From Thermoplasmata archaeon (lineage in GTDB: Archaea > Thermoplasmatota > Thermoplasmata > Lutacidiplasmatales > UBA184), in assembly GCA_021819135.1 (NCBI GenBank), contig JAKASE010000011.1, positions 1-64,000 on the forward strand: 64,000 nucleotides of DNA, in the 5' to 3' direction. Shown one piece after another: positions 55,656-62,422 of the stretch. The first letter of the stretch is position 1, and every line of letters begins with the position of its first letter. A program made the position numbers and the translations under genes. Below the pieces are notes generated by a model that was not told the origin of the DNA, made no database searches, and worked only from the letters and a program-made list of their open reading frames with translations.

Positions 55656-56363
55656 CTACCCCGCGACGAACGCCCCGAACATCCCTCCCGCGGCCTGACC
55701 GGGGTACGTGCAGAGATACCAGTAGTCCCCCGGTGTGGAGAGCGTGAACCCCATCGACTGCGACCAGTACATCCCGCCCTGGGGTTCGCCCATCATCGTC
55801 GATCCCCACATGCCGTACGACCCGGCCATCATCCCTCCGCCCATCATCGGGTACTCCCCGTACGGCGGGGCCTGGGTGGAGAGGATCCAGTCGTGGGTCA
55901 TCGAAGGGTCCATGTTGACGACCCTCACGGCCATGGGCTCCCCCACGGGGACGTGGATCGTCGGGTTCACGAGGCCGTTCACGACGAACGTCATGCCGTG
56001 GTCTTCGGGAGACATGACGATCAACAGCTGCGGAGCGCCCGGGTGCATCCACAGCGTGTCGTTCGACGCATAGGCGGTGGCGTCGGCGGTGGAGACGTTC
56101 TGCCACCGATCCAGCTGGGCGACGCTCGCGAGCTGGGGGCTCGAGCGGCTCGTCCCGGTCACGTTCGCGGGGGAGCCGAGAGACGTCGTGAGCAGCGTTC
56201 CGGCTACGACGATCGCGGCGATTCCGACCGCCACTCCGACCAGGACCGACACTCGCCCCCATCTCGTGCGTCCTCGGGGACTTCCCGGGTGGGCCCAGGC
56301 CGTCACCCGCCCGGGAAGGCCCGGGACCGGCGGCACGCCGTCCGACCGGTCGGATCCGTTCAT
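55656..56363 (-). CDS. Membrane-anchored sulfocyanin-like cupredoxin with Met-rich loop and altered ligand
   Basis: 235 residues with a transmembrane anchor at about 38-58 and an outer cupredoxin domain (about 95-235). The sulfocyanin/rusticyanin ligand set would be His-Cys-His-Met. Here His157 (MTHDW), Cys218 (WYLCTYPG) and Met228 remain, but the residue five after the Cys is Gln223 instead of His. Between His and Cys lies a loop with nine Met (173, 174, 178, 179, 185, 190, 191, 198, 204). Such Met clusters bind Cu(I). Electron transfer or copper buffering outside the membrane is likely. Its start overlaps the preceding SHOCT gene by 4 bp. Confidence 0.82.
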   Translation of the reverse strand: MNGSDRSDGVPPVPGLPGRVTAWAHPGSPRGRTRWGRVSVLVGVAVGIAAIVVAGTLLTTSLGSPANVTGTSRSSPQLASVAQLDRWQNVSTADATAYASNDTLWMHPGAPQLLIVMSPEDHGMTFVVNGLVNPTIHVPVGEPMAVRVVNMDPSMTHDWILSTQAPPYGEYPMMGGGMMAGSYGMWGSTMMGEPQGGMYWSQSMGFTLSTPGDYWYLCTYPGQAAGGMFGAFVAG

Positions 56364-57030: not shown

Positions 57031-57651
57031 CTAGGGGGAACGGAGCGTCGCTCGGACTCGGTTCGACATCCCCTGGCGCTGCCGTACCACGAGCCCCCGG
57101 CCCTCGAGCTTGTCGAGGAGGCGGCTCACCTTCGCATCGGAGAACGAGGTCGACCGAACCAGGTCCCGCTGGAGCGCGTCGCCCCCGCTGGTGAGCAGGA
57201 CCCGCATCAATTCCTGCTCATCGCCGTCCAGGAGTCGCAGGACCACGTGCTCGAGCTCCGTGGCCGACGCGTCGGCCGTCGCGCGGGGGACCATCACGGG
57301 CGCGGGTTCCCGAGCCGGCGACATTCCGAGCGGGGCCCGGGTCATGAACAGGTAGGCTGCGGCGATCCCGGCAATGAGCGCGGCGAGCAGGATGAAGATC
57401 GAGACGAACACGACGATCGCCATCGGAAGGGTCTGATGGGGTACGATGAACGGGATGGCGATGAGGAGACCGAGGAGTACGGCGGTGCCCGCGAGGACGG
57501 CCTTCACCAGCAGGCGGGTCCGCACGATGGGAAGGGGCGGCTCGACCCGGACCGATGTCCGAAGTCCGCGTTGGAGCGGCAGCACCGGGGGATCTCCGAA
57601 CTTTCGAGCGGTCTCGCCCATTCCGTGTCCTTGGGCGGTCGGCTCTCTCAT
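57031..57651 (-). CDS. Membrane-anchored winged-helix (MarR/TrmB-like) regulator
   Basis: 206 residues (alternative start ATG at 57621, MGETARKF). Two hydrophobic segments lie near 54-76 and 81-108. A C-terminal winged helix follows: VVLRLLDGDEQELMRVLLTS, ALQRDLVRSTSFSDAKVSRL and EGRGLVVRQRQGMSNRVRAT. DNA-binding domains tethered to the membrane are common in archaea. It sits between copA and the cupredoxin operon on the same strand. GTGAA-N6-TTCAC at 57661-57676 lies just upstream of its start and may be an operator. Confidence 0.75.
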   Translation of the reverse strand: MREPTAQGHGMGETARKFGDPPVLPLQRGLRTSVRVEPPLPIVRTRLLVKAVLAGTAVLLGLLIAIPFIVPHQTLPMAIVVFVSIFILLAALIAGIAAAYLFMTRAPLGMSPAREPAPVMVPRATADASATELEHVVLRLLDGDEQELMRVLLTSGGDALQRDLVRSTSFSDAKVSRLLDKLEGRGLVVRQRQGMSNRVRATLRSP

Positions 57652-57910: not shown

Positions 57911-59983
57911 TCACTCCAGGGACACGAACCGCAGGGAGAGGGAGTTCAGGACCACGGAGGTGGAGGAGAGCGCCATGGCGAGGGCACCCGTGATGGGGAG
58001 GATGTTGTAGATCCCCAGTCCGAAGGCCGGGACCAGCGCGCCCGCGGCGATCGGCAAGAGCACGGCGTTGTACCCGAGGGCCCAGGTCAGATTTCCCCGC
58101 ACCTTGCCGACGGTCCTCCGCCCGGTGCGCAGCGCGAGCGCCACACCCCGGAAGTCGGATCGGACCAGGACCACTCCCCCGGTCTCCTTCGCCACGTCCG
58201 TGCCGGCTCCGATCGCGATCCCGAGGTCGGCCGCGGCGAGCGCGGGGGCATCGTTGATCCCGTCGCCGACGTACCCCACACGCTTCCCCCGGTGCTGGAG
58301 CTCCTGGATCAGGGCGAGCTTTCCCTGCGGGGTCATCCGTGCGTGGACCTCCTGGATCCCGACCTGCCGGGCCACGTTCTCGGCACTCGCCTCGTGGTCT
58401 CCCGTGACCATGACCACCGAGATCCCGTCGGTCGCGAGCGCCCGGACCGCCTCCTTCACGCCGGGGGCGATCTCGTCCGAGAATCCGAGCAGGCCGGCGA
58501 GCCGCCCGTCCTCGAGGACGAGCGACCAGCTCTTCCCCTCGGACTCGAGACGGCGGGCTTCCCCCGCAAGCGGACCGAGTTCGACCCCGGTTTCGGGGGC
58601 GGCCGACCCCCGGAGGACCGAGGCCGAGCGGCCGTCGATCTGCCCGCGGATGCCGCGGCCGGGTTCCGCCGTGACATCCCGGAAGACGAGGGGGGTCGTC
58701 CCTTCCCGCTGCGCGCGCTCGCAGACCGCACGCGCGAGAGGGTGCTCGGATCCCTGTTCGAGACCGGCGGCCACGCCGAGGAGCTGGGCCGGGGCCACGC
58801 CAGGGGCGGGCAACAGGTCGGTGAGGCTGGGCTCGCCCCGGGTCAGCGTCCCGGTCTTGTCCGACAGCACCACGTCGATCTGGCTCGCACGCTCGAGGGA
58901 GTCTCGGCCCTTGAACAGGATCCCTTCCTCGGCGGCCCGTCCCGTCCCGACCACGATCGCCGCGGGCGTCGCGATACCGAACGCGCACGGGCAGGCAATG
59001 ATCACCACCGAGACGAACACCAGAAGCGCGATGGTGAAGCCCACCCCGGCGAGGAGGAACCAACCCAAAGCGGCGGCCGCGGCGAGACCGATGACCACGG
59101 GGACGAACCGCGAGGCGATGCGGTCGGCCAGCTTCTGGAGCGGGACTCGGCTCGTTTCGGCTTCGGCCACCAGCTGACCGATCTGCGAGAGGAGGGTATC
59201 CGCCCCGACCTTGGTGGCCTCCATCGTGAGCAAGCCCTCCCCGTTGATGGCTCCGGCGATGACGGGGTCCCCCGGCTTCTTCTCCACGGGCATGCTCTCG
59301 CCGGTCAGGACCGACTCGTTCACGGACGAGTGGCCTTCGACGACCTTGCCGTCCGTCGGAAATCGTGCCCCGGGACGGACGCGGAGCCGGTCGGAGACCT
59401 GGACCTCCGACACCGGCACCTCGACCTCCTGCCCGCCCCGGAGGACGAAGGCCGTGGTCGGCACCTGCTCCTTCAGCTTCCGAAGGGAGCCCCGGGCCCT
59501 CTCCCGGGTGAGATGCTCGAGGTAATTGCCCGTCAGGATCAGCGTGACGATCAGCGCCGAGGCGTCGAAGTAGTAGTTCGGGGGAAGAGCGGCCGGAAGG
59601 ACGACGACCACCGCACTGTACAGGAAGGCGATCGTCGTTCCTACCGCAATGAGGATGTCCATGTTCCAGACGCGATTGCGCATCGCATCGAACGTCCCGT
59701 GATAGAACTGGAGTCCGGGGTAGAACTGCACCACCGCGGCCAACCCGAACGCGGCCCAGGGCCAGCCCGGGACGGGGTGCAAGTACGAAAGGGCGAGGAT
59801 GGCGATGGAGAGCGGCCAGCCGACCGCGAGTCGCTGCCGGAGCCGCGTCAGCTGACGTTCCGGGGCCGAGAACTCCTGCAGACACGAGGTCGAGCAGAAG
59901 AAGTAGGTGCGGTTCTCGCGGGCGAGGGTCAGCTCCGCGGAATGTTCGTCCACGAACATCCCGCAGATCGGATCCGTCGCCAC
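57911..59983 (-). CDS. copA: Cu(I)-transporting P1B-type ATPase with N-terminal YHS-like domain
   Basis: 690 residues. The N-terminal 45 residues form a YHS/TRASH-like metal domain (DPICGM...YFFCSTSCLQEF; Cys7, Cys30, Cys34) in place of the usual GMxCxxC heavy-metal domain. Eight membrane helices follow; CPC is at 331-333 in TM6, the phosphorylated Asp375 in DKTGT, SEHPL in the nucleotide domain, and YN in TM7 with MALSS in TM8, the Cu(I) signature of P1B-1 ATPases. It exports Cu(I) across the membrane. The gene follows the free YHS protein by 27 bp and shares its operator region. Confidence 0.93.
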   Translation of the reverse strand: MATDPICGMFVDEHSAELTLARENRTYFFCSTSCLQEFSAPERQLTRLRQRLAVGWPLSIAILALSYLHPVPGWPWAAFGLAAVVQFYPGLQFYHGTFDAMRNRVWNMDILIAVGTTIAFLYSAVVVVLPAALPPNYYFDASALIVTLILTGNYLEHLTRERARGSLRKLKEQVPTTAFVLRGGQEVEVPVSEVQVSDRLRVRPGARFPTDGKVVEGHSSVNESVLTGESMPVEKKPGDPVIAGAINGEGLLTMEATKVGADTLLSQIGQLVAEAETSRVPLQKLADRIASRFVPVVIGLAAAAALGWFLLAGVGFTIALLVFVSVVIIACPCAFGIATPAAIVVGTGRAAEEGILFKGRDSLERASQIDVVLSDKTGTLTRGEPSLTDLLPAPGVAPAQLLGVAAGLEQGSEHPLARAVCERAQREGTTPLVFRDVTAEPGRGIRGQIDGRSASVLRGSAAPETGVELGPLAGEARRLESEGKSWSLVLEDGRLAGLLGFSDEIAPGVKEAVRALATDGISVVMVTGDHEASAENVARQVGIQEVHARMTPQGKLALIQELQHRGKRVGYVGDGINDAPALAAADLGIAIGAGTDVAKETGGVVLVRSDFRGVALALRTGRRTVGKVRGNLTWALGYNAVLLPIAAGALVPAFGLGIYNILPITGALAMALSSTSVVLNSLSLRFVSLE

Positions 59984-60010
59984 GGGCCCCGTCCGCGCTC
60001 GCCGATGCGC

Positions 60011-60181
60011 TCAGTGGGGGTGGGTCGGGGGGCTCGAGGCGGCCGAGGGGTGGCGGGCATCGTAGGTCGCCTTGCAGTGAGGGCTGCAGAAGTAGACGGT
60101 CTCGGCGCCGTAGACCCCTTTCGCGGCCGCCCGTTCCGTATCCACGCTCATCCCACAGATCGGATCCTTCGCTCGGGACAT
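60011..60181 (-). CDS. Free YHS-domain protein, probable copper chaperone
   Basis: 56 residues, MSRAKDPICGMSVDTERAAA then YFCSPHCKATYDARHPS and a His-containing tail (PPTHPH). The three Cys are the same YHS set as at the N-terminus of the ATPase encoded 27 bp downstream, so the two domains may exchange copper. GGAGAGG precedes the ATG, with a TATA-like GGTTTATTTA (complement of about 60212-60223) behind it. Confidence 0.8.
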   Translation of the reverse strand: MSRAKDPICGMSVDTERAAAKGVYGAETVYFCSPHCKATYDARHPSAASSPPTHPH

Positions 60182-60183
60182 GA

Positions 60184-60211
60184 TAATGCCTCTCCACAGT
60201 CCAGGGCATTA
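60184..60211. promoter_or_regulatory. Inverted repeat TAATGCC...GGCATTA in the YHS/copA promoter
   Basis: Perfect 7-bp arms (60184-60190 and 60205-60211) with 14 bp between, lying between the minus-strand TATA box and the YHS start, where a bound repressor would cover the transcription start. The arms share TAATGC with the repeat at 60300-60320. Confidence 0.6.
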
Positions 60212-60299
60212 GGTTTATTTAACGTCCACTTCGGACCGTCACAACCGCGGTGACCGCTCTTGCGGAAGGCGGCCTTCCCGTGGCGCCACGTCCTCGAAG

Positions 60300-60320
60300 T
60301 ATAATGCAAATCGCATTATA
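60300..60320. promoter_or_regulatory. 21-bp palindrome TATAATGC-N5-GCATTATA
   Basis: Perfect 8-bp arms separated by AAATC, in the intergenic region between the YHS/copA genes and the divergent CGNR regulator. The AT-rich arms may double as a TATA element for the regulator gene. Same half-site as 60184-60211, so both are probably bound by the same protein. Confidence 0.65.
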
Positions 60321-60411
60321 TGTCCGTTAGATGCCCTCACCGTAGAAGGCAGCGCCCGAACGAGGAGGGCAACGGATCGGTCCGCTGGCCTCCGTCGGAC
60401 TGACCCCACGA

Positions 60412-61020
60412 ATGTCGGATCACACACACCCTCACCGAGTTCCCCGGGGACCGCGCGGGGAGGACAGCCACCCGGTGTCCTGGGGACTCGCCGTCGATTT
60501 CGCGAACACCGTGGCGTGCCAGGCCTGTCGGTGCTCGGACGTTCTGTCCGACCCGGAGACCTTCACGCGGTGGAACCGGGCTCATCCGGAGCTTCCGGAC
60601 GTAAGTGCGACCACCGCCCTGCGAGGGGATCTGATCTCTCTGCGCCGGGACGTGCGAGCGATCTTGGAACGTCAGGCCGCCAAGAGACCGCCGACCTCGG
60701 CGTCGGTCGGTCGGCTCAACCGGGTCCTGCGGACCTCGAGCACCCACTGGCGCGCCGAGTTCGTCGAGCGGCGGTGGGTCCTCACGGAGGTCCCCGAAGG
60801 GCTGTCGCCCACGCAAGAGTGGAGGTGGCGGGTGGCTCGCGCGACCGTGGACCTGTTGGCCGGGACGCTGGGCGGGAAGCTCCTCAAGTGTCGGGCTCCG
60901 ACGTGCGACCACTTTGTCGTCCGTCGGATGCGCGACCAGCTCTGGTGCTCGCCGGCCTGCGGGAACCGCGTCCGGGTGGCACGGCACTACGAAAGGGTGA
61001 GGCGGCGGGCCGCCGCGTGA
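60412..61020 (+). CDS. CGNR zinc-finger (ABATE-domain) regulator, candidate copper sensor
   Basis: 202 residues. The N-terminal ABATE domain starts after a His-rich tail (SDHTHPHR) and contains a cysteine cluster, Cys36, Cys39, Cys41, in VACQACRCSD. The C-terminal CGNR zinc finger (CRAPTCDHF...WCSPACGNRVRVARHYER) is complete and ends in a basic DNA-binding stretch. ABATE-CGNR proteins are stress regulators of poorly known ligand. Position opposite copA and the shared TAATGC repeats suggest it senses copper through the N-terminal cysteines. Inference. Confidence 0.8.
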   Translation: MSDHTHPHRVPRGPRGEDSHPVSWGLAVDFANTVACQACRCSDVLSDPETFTRWNRAHPELPDVSATTALRGDLISLRRDVRAILERQAAKRPPTSASVGRLNRVLRTSSTHWRAEFVERRWVLTEVPEGLSPTQEWRWRVARATVDLLAGTLGGKLLKCRAPTCDHFVVRRMRDQLWCSPACGNRVRVARHYERVRRRAAA

Positions 61021-61114
61021 GAGCCGTACTCGGGCCCATGGCTCCCTGGTGCCTAAGGTCGAGACCCTCGGAAGCCGGGTACCCCGGTCGGGGGACTTCG
61101 GACCTCCGGGGCAG

Positions 61115-61274
61115 TGGGAGCACGGGGATTTGAACCCCGATATGCGGGTCTCTCCGCGCGCTCCAGTCATTCGTCATGGGGGCGCGAGGCGCCCCTCCGC
61201 AGACCCAAATCCCAGGGGATCGTTCGATCACCCTGACTGGAGCCCGCTGGTCTGCCAGATTAGCCTATGCTCCC
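61115..61274 (-). tRNA. tRNA-Trp (CCA) with 87-nt intron
   Basis: Exons: 61237-61274 (5') and 61115-61149 (3'), intron 61150-61236 on the minus strand, giving a 73-nt mature tRNA. The acceptor GGGAGCA pairs with TGCTCCC, anticodon stem GCGGG with CCCGC, anticodon loop CTCCAG|A, T arm CGGGG-TTCAAAT-CCCCG, discriminator A. The intron follows position 37, the canonical archaeal site. GGAG in the intron, 3 nt (AGA) before the 3' exon stem, can pair with CTCC of the anticodon loop to give half of a bulge-helix-bulge motif. The D stem has a weak C-A pair. CCA is not encoded. Confidence 0.9.
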
Positions 61275-61402
61275 ACGGCGCTACGGGGGAGCCTCCGGGA
61301 AGATATCCTTTGTCGTGACCGGACCGCGGCGGCCCTAGGACGGCCCGGCGGGTGTCGGCAGGGTCGGAACGCTTATGTGAAAGCGCGTTTGCCTCCAATC
61401 CA

Positions 61403-62422
61403 ATGTCCTTTAAGGCCGGTGGTCCCGCGCCCCCCACGGGAAGAACCGTTTCCACCATGTGGGTCGCCGTGATCGCGCTCGTGGCCGTCGGCGCGGGCGT
61501 CGCCGGGACCTCCACCTACTTCGCGCTGAACCCTGCGGCCCAGCCCACCCCCGCGCACTCGATCGGGATCACCGACGACCTCGGGCGGAACGTGACCGTC
61601 CCGATCGATCCGGCTCGGATCGCGGTCCTGAGCCCGAGCATCATGGACGAGGTCTACCGCCTCGGTCTGCGGACCCACGTGGTCGGGGTGGACTGCTATG
61701 CCGCGGCGTTCGGGGGGTTAACCACCGACTACTCGTCCGATCAGATCGCGCTGTGGAACCTGACCCCCTCGATGTGTGTGCAGGTCGCTCCGACCCTTTC
61801 TCCCGAGATGCTCGTCAATCTCACCCCGTCGCTGGTGCTTGCCTCGACGATCGACCCGCTCGGGCCGATCGAGAAGATCACGACCCAGCTCGGCGTCCCG
61901 CTCGTGGTTCTCCAGCCCGCGACCCTGAGCGGCATTCTGGTCGACGACTCCCTCCTCGGCGAGATCTTCGGAGTACAGTCCACCGCTTCCGCGCTCAACG
62001 CGGAACTCGCCGCCGAGCTGTACCATGCGACCAACCTTACCGTGACGGAGTCCTTCCCCTACGTCCTGGTCACCTACTCGGACGACTCGAACGGGTACTG
62101 GACGTTCGGGCCCAGCACCTTCGGGGAGTCGCTGATCGAGCTCGCGGGGGCGACGAGCATCGCCGCGAACGCGACGATGCAGTGGCCGGAGCTCTCTCCG
62201 GCGCAGATCCTGTACGCGAACCCAAGCGTCATCGTCTACGGGTACGGCTTCGGCCTCAACGAGAGCAGCTACGCGGGCGGCCCCGACTGGTCCCAGTTCG
62301 GGGCGGTGCAGGCGGGGAACGTGAGCGGCATCGACTCGAACTGGATCACCGAGCCGGACCCGACCATGATCCTGGACGGGCTCCCGACCCTCATCGCCGA
62401 CTTCCATCCCGGTACGGTCTGA
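61403..62422 (+). CDS. ABC importer substrate-binding protein (cobalamin/Fe-siderophore type), membrane-anchored
   Basis: 339 residues from the ATG at 61403; the frame opens 51 bp earlier at a GTG. A hydrophobic anchor (VAVIALVAVGAGVAGTSTYF) is at about 20-39, then ITDDLGRNVTVPIDPARIAV begins the BtuF/FepB-type periplasmic-binding domain. DEVYRLGLRTHVVGVDCYAA, LVLASTIDPLGPIEK and TFGPSTFGESLIELAGA are typical. It captures a metal chelate outside the cell and delivers it to the permease encoded 15 bp downstream. Confidence 0.88.
   Translation: MSFKAGGPAPPTGRTVSTMWVAVIALVAVGAGVAGTSTYFALNPAAQPTPAHSIGITDDLGRNVTVPIDPARIAVLSPSIMDEVYRLGLRTHVVGVDCYAAAFGGLTTDYSSDQIALWNLTPSMCVQVAPTLSPEMLVNLTPSLVLASTIDPLGPIEKITTQLGVPLVVLQPATLSGILVDDSLLGEIFGVQSTASALNAELAAELYHATNLTVTESFPYVLVTYSDDSNGYWTFGPSTFGESLIELAGATSIAANATMQWPELSPAQILYANPSVIVYGYGFGLNESSYAGGPDWSQFGAVQAGNVSGIDSNWITEPDPTMILDGLPTLIADFHPGTV

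Follow-up and report, generated by a model that had tools for sequence, protein, structure and literature searches.

The window analysed here, the first 64,000 nucleotides of contig JAKASE010000011.1 from a Thermoplasmata archaeon (assembly GCA_021819135.1), contains a copper-export operon of a known kind, encoding a small free YHS protein and the copper pump CopA, next to a divergent gene for a putative regulator of the ABATE/CGNR family, which we have not found described in such a role. This protein very probably binds a 28-bp palindrome, TAATGCC-N14-GGCATTA, located immediately upstream of the YHS gene. In the mechanism that we propose, and to which we assign as a whole a probability of about 0.62, the one-component regulator would bind as a dimer to the palindrome, whose half-site centres are spaced 21 bp, or two helical turns, apart. 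Seated between a TATA-like box and the start codon, it would exclude RNA polymerase and so repress YHS and copA. Rising cytoplasmic Cu(I) would bind to a CxxC knuckle (Cys36 and Cys39) in the ABATE domain and make the regulator release the DNA, and the free YHS protein would deliver Cu(I) for export to the pump's own YHS domain. The features concerned are the following.

57911-59983, minus strand: copA, with a GTG start; E1-E2 ATPase and hydrolase matches in Pfam
59855-59977, minus strand: YHS domain of CopA (Pfam YHS, residues 3-43, E 1.1e-6)
60011-60181, minus strand: free YHS gene, 56 aa, candidate Cu(I) carrier (Pfam YHS, E 6.3e-7)
60184-60211, no strand: putative operator 1, TAATGCC-N14-GGCATTA, with perfect 7-base arms; 2 nt separate it from the YHS start codon
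60214-60222, minus strand: TATA-like box TTAAATAAA in the promoter of YHS-copA, directly adjoining operator 1; recognised by eye
60300-60320, no strand: exact repeat TATAATGC-AAATC-GCATTATA with an N5 spacer; specific to the window
60302-60329, no strand: operator 2 candidate, TAATGCA-N14-TCCGTTA, upstream of the CGNR gene, with 3 mismatches to the operator pattern
60412-61020, plus strand: ABATE/CGNR regulator gene, 202 aa (Pfam ABATE, 3.9e-15; zf-CGNR, 1.7e-9)
60517-60528, plus strand: CxxC motif, Cys36 and Cys39, putative Cu(I) site; conserved in 24/24 archaeal proteins

The original prediction, made from the DNA letters alone, had described a free YHS gene and a CopA with the same type of domain, facing a divergent ABATE/CGNR gene. 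Open reading frames and Pfam matches confirm this description as a whole, with each gene located as claimed; its interpretation stands in its core and only partly in its details, as set out below. Judged from its translation, CopA is a P1B-1-like Cu(I) ATPase, with the CPC, YN and MxxSS membrane motifs (found by eye), together presumably the P1B-1 signature, on a P1B core. A Pfam search of CopA gave no match to the HMA domain. Both YHS matches, with scores slightly below the Pfam cut-off of 30.3 bits (29.7 bits for the free protein and 29.0 bits for the CopA domain), carry DPxCGM and FCS-type cysteines, the window YHS reading DPIC and FCSPHC. The regulator shows the architecture of its family, an ABATE domain (PF07336) followed by a four-Cys treble-clef CGNR finger (PF11706), with Pfam scores above cut-off.

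Two inverted repeats built on TAATGC had been noted in the intergenic region as shared operators, the one with the 5-nt spacer being stressed. Both repeats are present, but the conserved one is the N14 palindrome at 60184-60211. In the source genome (2.2 Mb in 47 contigs, 91% complete), this palindrome is the sole match to its pattern at up to two mismatches; at up to three there are 17 sites, and 65 for the reversed control. A genome-wide search for the core of the other repeat, TAATGC-N5-GCATTA, at up to one mismatch likewise returned the window copy only, and at up to three mismatches the window holds 3 matches vs 2.1 expected. No N5-type site was seen at the other 20 of the 21 CGNR-linked copA loci described below, and we thus reject the N5 repeat as the main operator and regard it as window-specific. 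It overlaps the degenerate second N14 pair at 60302-60329 (5/7 arm positions matched). The idea of shared operators is strongly supported, via the repeat with N14 spacing and not via the N5 repeat.

The evidence for this comes from copA regions collected across the genus (loci carry L numbers and genomes G numbers) and scanned for palindromes in which two 7-base arms, each with TAA at its outer end, flank an N14 spacer, and at least 5/7 (or at least 4/7) positions match. A first scan upstream of copA comprised 54 loci, 39 of the 42 unlinked ones with a full 600 nt, and under the 5/7 rule found the palindrome at 10/12 CGNR-linked and 0/42 unlinked loci; among spacers of 0-30 other than 14, only 3 and 24 gave a match, at one linked locus each. 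A second scan covered 57 loci, leaving out L097, which has no YHS motif. With four linked loci added and the 4/7 rule applied, it yielded 14/16 linked vs 0/41 unlinked loci (Fisher 1.6e-11), the 5/7 rule recovering 12/16, and dinucleotide shuffles of the 16 linked regions contained a site in 0.035 loci on average and in two at most. Five new copA-linked loci from sister genera (L222-L225 and L230), fetched once the rule was fixed, had the palindrome in 5/5 cases. The final scan, with 62 copA loci of which 59 had at least 600 nt upstream, gave 19/21 linked and 0/41 unlinked loci at 4/7, and 16/21 linked loci at 5/7. The two misses are L012, where copA and YHS are split and each promoter retains a palindrome (one before the separate YHS gene, one before the copA operon), and L200 with a spacer of 15; inventoried in this way, the 21 linked loci have N14 in 20 cases and N15 in one.

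An exact pattern, CTAAYG-N18-CRTTAG, occurs at nine places in the 78 genus genomes, all of them next to CGNR, either at YHS-copA or at a YHS gene; 9/18 genomes with CGNR have it and 0/60 others (Fisher 2.7e-7). The reversed pattern has matches in four genomes, none with CGNR. Operator 1 of the window itself escapes the exact pattern, one of its flanks being different. Loosened by 2-3 mismatches for a regulon search, the pattern is outnumbered by its reversed control, so that exact or near-exact matches alone are usable. In favour of the view that the palindromes arose by chance in AT-rich promoter sequence, one could adduce the 17 loose sites in the source genome and the 65 of the reversed control. 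That view is hardly credible: it is already contradicted by the spacer, shuffle, exact-pattern, sister-genus and final scans, with no palindrome in any of the 41 unlinked promoters and the exact matches confined to CGNR/YHS loci.

The palindrome also follows the regulator gene rather than the pump. Presence of CGNR switches nine times over the CopA tree, well-supported branches forcing at least five of these changes, and the palindrome tracks CGNR in 4.8 of five independent pairs on average and never shows the opposite pattern. In genome G002, where copA of this type occurs twice, the CGNR-linked copy (L012) has the palindrome and the other (L053), with no CGNR gene beside it, has none. Together with the specificity of the exact pattern, this fits a local, dedicated regulator. 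It is against this background that another binder has to be considered, unlinked or neighbouring, with the CGNR protein as a mere passenger. The obvious example in the window is a membrane-anchored DUF7343/MarR-type protein encoded downstream of copA (57031-57651, minus strand). Such a binder is very unlikely given the distribution over the CopA tree and the two G002 loci, and the DUF7343/MarR protein as candidate was rejected, since it was matched at the window locus alone (1/59 loci, and 0/10 further loci). The pairing of the CGNR protein with the palindrome is, in our view, strongly supported by the comparative data. At L020 and L054 the half-site reads TAACTAC instead of TAATGCC, and the CGNR finger reads WCAMALCGNRVKA instead of WCSPxGCGNRxRV; this may possibly reflect a specificity code, though L122 also has a TAACTAC arm. 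YHS-copA promoters without CGNR (among L041 and L052-L097) have no palindrome, and a rhodanese-like gene seems, by eye, to lie upstream in many of them.

The linkage of the CGNR gene to copA in relatives, on which the original prediction had staked itself, holds in 21 of the 24 testable genes, which adjoin YHS-copA. Within the genus, CGNR occurs in 18/78 genomes and 15/15 testable copies lie by YHS-copA (contig ends truncate those of G003, G027 and G033, which were excluded); in sister genera 6/9 CGNR genes are linked. A weak match near a contig end in G308, from another family (L231), was not counted. The orientation is not always that of the window: at L012, CGNR converges with copA and diverges from YHS. 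Linkage to copA and an operator shared among relatives, by which we would recognise a copper-responsive regulator, are both found.

Three N-terminal cysteines of the regulator had been proposed as a sensor. Cys36, Cys39 and Cys41 are indeed present, and the first two are conserved in 24/24 testable archaeal proteins, as a CxxC motif that directly follows helix 1 of the ABATE domain. Cys41 is found in 1/24, the window's own protein, and the three-cysteine sensor is thus reduced to CxxC. We aligned 61 proteins, namely that of the window and 60 taken from the best 80 of 371 relatives. The zinc-finger residues C160, C165, C179 and C183 are invariant in all 61, and none of the 54 aligned bacterial homologues has a Cys at either CxxC place. 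A less precise survey, confined to the first 110 residues of automatically called open reading frames (some with doubtful starts), likewise showed no CxxC Cys at any of 74 bacterial-titled loci. In an AlphaFold2 model (pLDDT 88.6 overall and 94-95 around CxxC), residues 36 and 41 occupy strand or bridge positions with Cys39 between them, in a knuckle-like hairpin. A profile search against solved structures returned nothing at E 0.1, though Foldseek found 3h0n as the best solved match (E 1.6e-7, TM 0.63/0.69, 17% identity). The conserved palindrome is two-fold symmetric, which fits a dimeric binder, and a 3h0n dimer is known (PMC2954205).

The HMA domain (PF00403) is found in 1/78 genus genomes and in 0/25 high-quality ones, vs 13/14 controls, and outside the genus in 6/8 relatives. 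Because HMA domains are nearly absent from the genus, YHS is the likely copper carrier. A free-YHS match accompanies 50/58 copA loci, a count in which the L091 match overlaps with the domain belonging to the pump, yet an upstream YHS reading frame is visible there. TRASH (PF08394) is matched in 13/78 genomes of the genus, always by a pump-length frame or a YHS protein, and not at all in the source genome, although the silence of this profile is weak evidence, since it matches only 2/14 control genomes. Twelve pump-length frames were taken as CopA, nine coinciding with copA places and three by length alone; the remaining match, a 255 aa frame, is on inspection a YHS protein. A YHS-to-YHS relay of Cu(I), as already suggested by the original prediction, would be a plausible and natural reading of these data.

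The position of the palindrome bears on the sign of regulation. It ends no more than 3 nt from the YHS start codon in 15/21 loci, as does operator 1 of the window. In many relatives an AT-rich, TATA-like box, recognised by eye, abuts its far end, so that the site fills the gap between this box and the start codon; the YHS-copA message looks leaderless. Placement at the start codon argues for repression, and the CGNR protein is probably a repressor at the YHS-copA promoter.

Several observations weigh against the proposed mechanism. At five of the 21 loci (L018, L019, L020, L054 and L089) the palindrome lies 38-52 nt upstream of YHS and nearer to CGNR, which leaves room for activation or autoregulation. 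CGNR is present in only 18/78 genus genomes, in contrast to the widespread YHS-copA, and most members must therefore control copA otherwise. The tree-corrected comparison has five well-supported pairs and is unable to reach p 0.05. CGNR genes were located with a profile that derives from copA-linked proteins alone and may favour linked ones. The sole HMA-positive genome of the genus, G088, is a CGNR genome. Finally, three CxxC-type CGNR genes (at L226, L228 and L229, the last being the same as L122) are located away from copA.

The five upstream palindromes would suit a regulator that activates YHS-copA, or represses its own gene alone, from the shared operator, as proposed for CopR of Pyrococcus. 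According to the accessible part of PMC7830388, CopR of P. furiosus is an activator whose binding site lies upstream of the copA TATA box. Such a mode of action is unlikely here, considering the blocking position of the site in the majority of loci and in the window, and repression remains our preferred reading. Two of the three unlinked genes, in turn, bear on a scenario in which the CGNR protein does occupy the palindrome, its signal being thiol or disulfide stress or a soft metal other than copper (Ag, Hg, Zn), the CxxC being a redox or general metal switch and copA one target among envelope and thiol genes. At L122 (3381-7884), the same locus as L229, a CxxC-type CGNR gene belongs to an operon whose other products are a SHOCT-like protein, a redoxin (AhpC-TSA, 3.7e-16) and a membrane protein without a Pfam match, with no copA in the stretch; N14 palindromes precede the operon (4/7) and the DoxX gene that follows it (5/7), and the regulon may extend to thiol or envelope functions. 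The copA operon of L012 is moreover divergent from a redoxin gene, and the CGNR gene of L226 (5495-7668) lies near one for an ABC-transporter ATPase. With 21 of the 24 testable CGNR genes by YHS-copA and the palindrome mostly at the YHS start, we nevertheless consider this scenario rather unlikely, and gene context together with the clade-specific CxxC makes a copper-type metal the likely signal of the regulator. At L228, no metal gene was recognised nearby, and an N13 palindrome precedes the CGNR start.

Two further features flank the locus in the window. The gene at 55656-56363 (minus strand) encodes a protein that looks cupredoxin-like by eye, with a C-terminal CTYPGQAAGGM and no Pfam match; it has Gln where His is usual in such copper sites. 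A 160-nt Rfam tRNA match at 61115-61274 (minus strand; 42.1 bits) probably represents a tRNA gene interrupted by a long intron, with a CCA anticodon for Trp by eye; ARAGORN, unlike Rfam, reported no tRNA at 60900-61500.

CsoR, CueR and CopY are copper regulators controlling copA. In the role proposed here the CGNR protein would, like them, act on a copA operon as a one-component switch that responds to metal, the folds being unrelated. CsoR-type genes occur in 16/78 genus genomes, and none in the source genome; a replacement of CsoR by CGNR was rejected, as the two are not mutually exclusive, CsoR being found in 5/18 CGNR genomes and 11/60 others.

Among archaea, the obvious systems for comparison are the cop clusters copTMA of Saccharolobus solfataricus, copR-copA of Pyrococcus furiosus and copYZB of Ferroplasma acidarmanus. 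As far as the accessible parts of PMC5328820 and PMC7830388 describe them, these clusters combine a small TRASH/YHS-type metal-binding protein, a copper P1B ATPase and a regulator that is sometimes divergent from copA. The small YHS protein and the copper pump of the window are of the same kind. The YHS domain of an adenylyl cyclase from Mycobacterium phlei, with one Asp and three Cys, is argued in the available portion of PMC4626032 to bind copper; there it is a sensor fused to an enzyme, whereas the window has it as a free protein and as a pump domain. The regulators differ: CopT, CopR and CopY join a helix-turn-helix domain to a TRASH sensor, whereas the window regulator matches ABATE and zf-CGNR alone and carries a CxxC. 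Its two-domain fold is common to Jann_2411 (3h0n), the founding ABATE/CGNR structure, a dimer with a treble-clef zinc finger that was proposed to be a ligand-dependent regulator (PMC2954205, in the part open to us). The ligand of this widespread family was left undefined in that portion of the paper, as were operator and targets, and in the literature that we searched, which excluded most subscription papers, no member with a function or operator was found; apart from the structure paper, what it yielded mentions the family in passing or is unrelated, judging by titles, abstract openings or counts. The present locus offers the family a specific putative operator of 28 bp, two cysteines as a candidate metal site, and a target in physiology. 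It thus makes the family directly testable, and it points to copper handling on YHS domains without HMA domains. We lean slightly towards viewing the archaeal branch of ABATE/CGNR proteins as a new class of copper sensors, which would have gained a CxxC in the ABATE domain and would replace CopT/CopR in an HMA-poor lineage using YHS alone.

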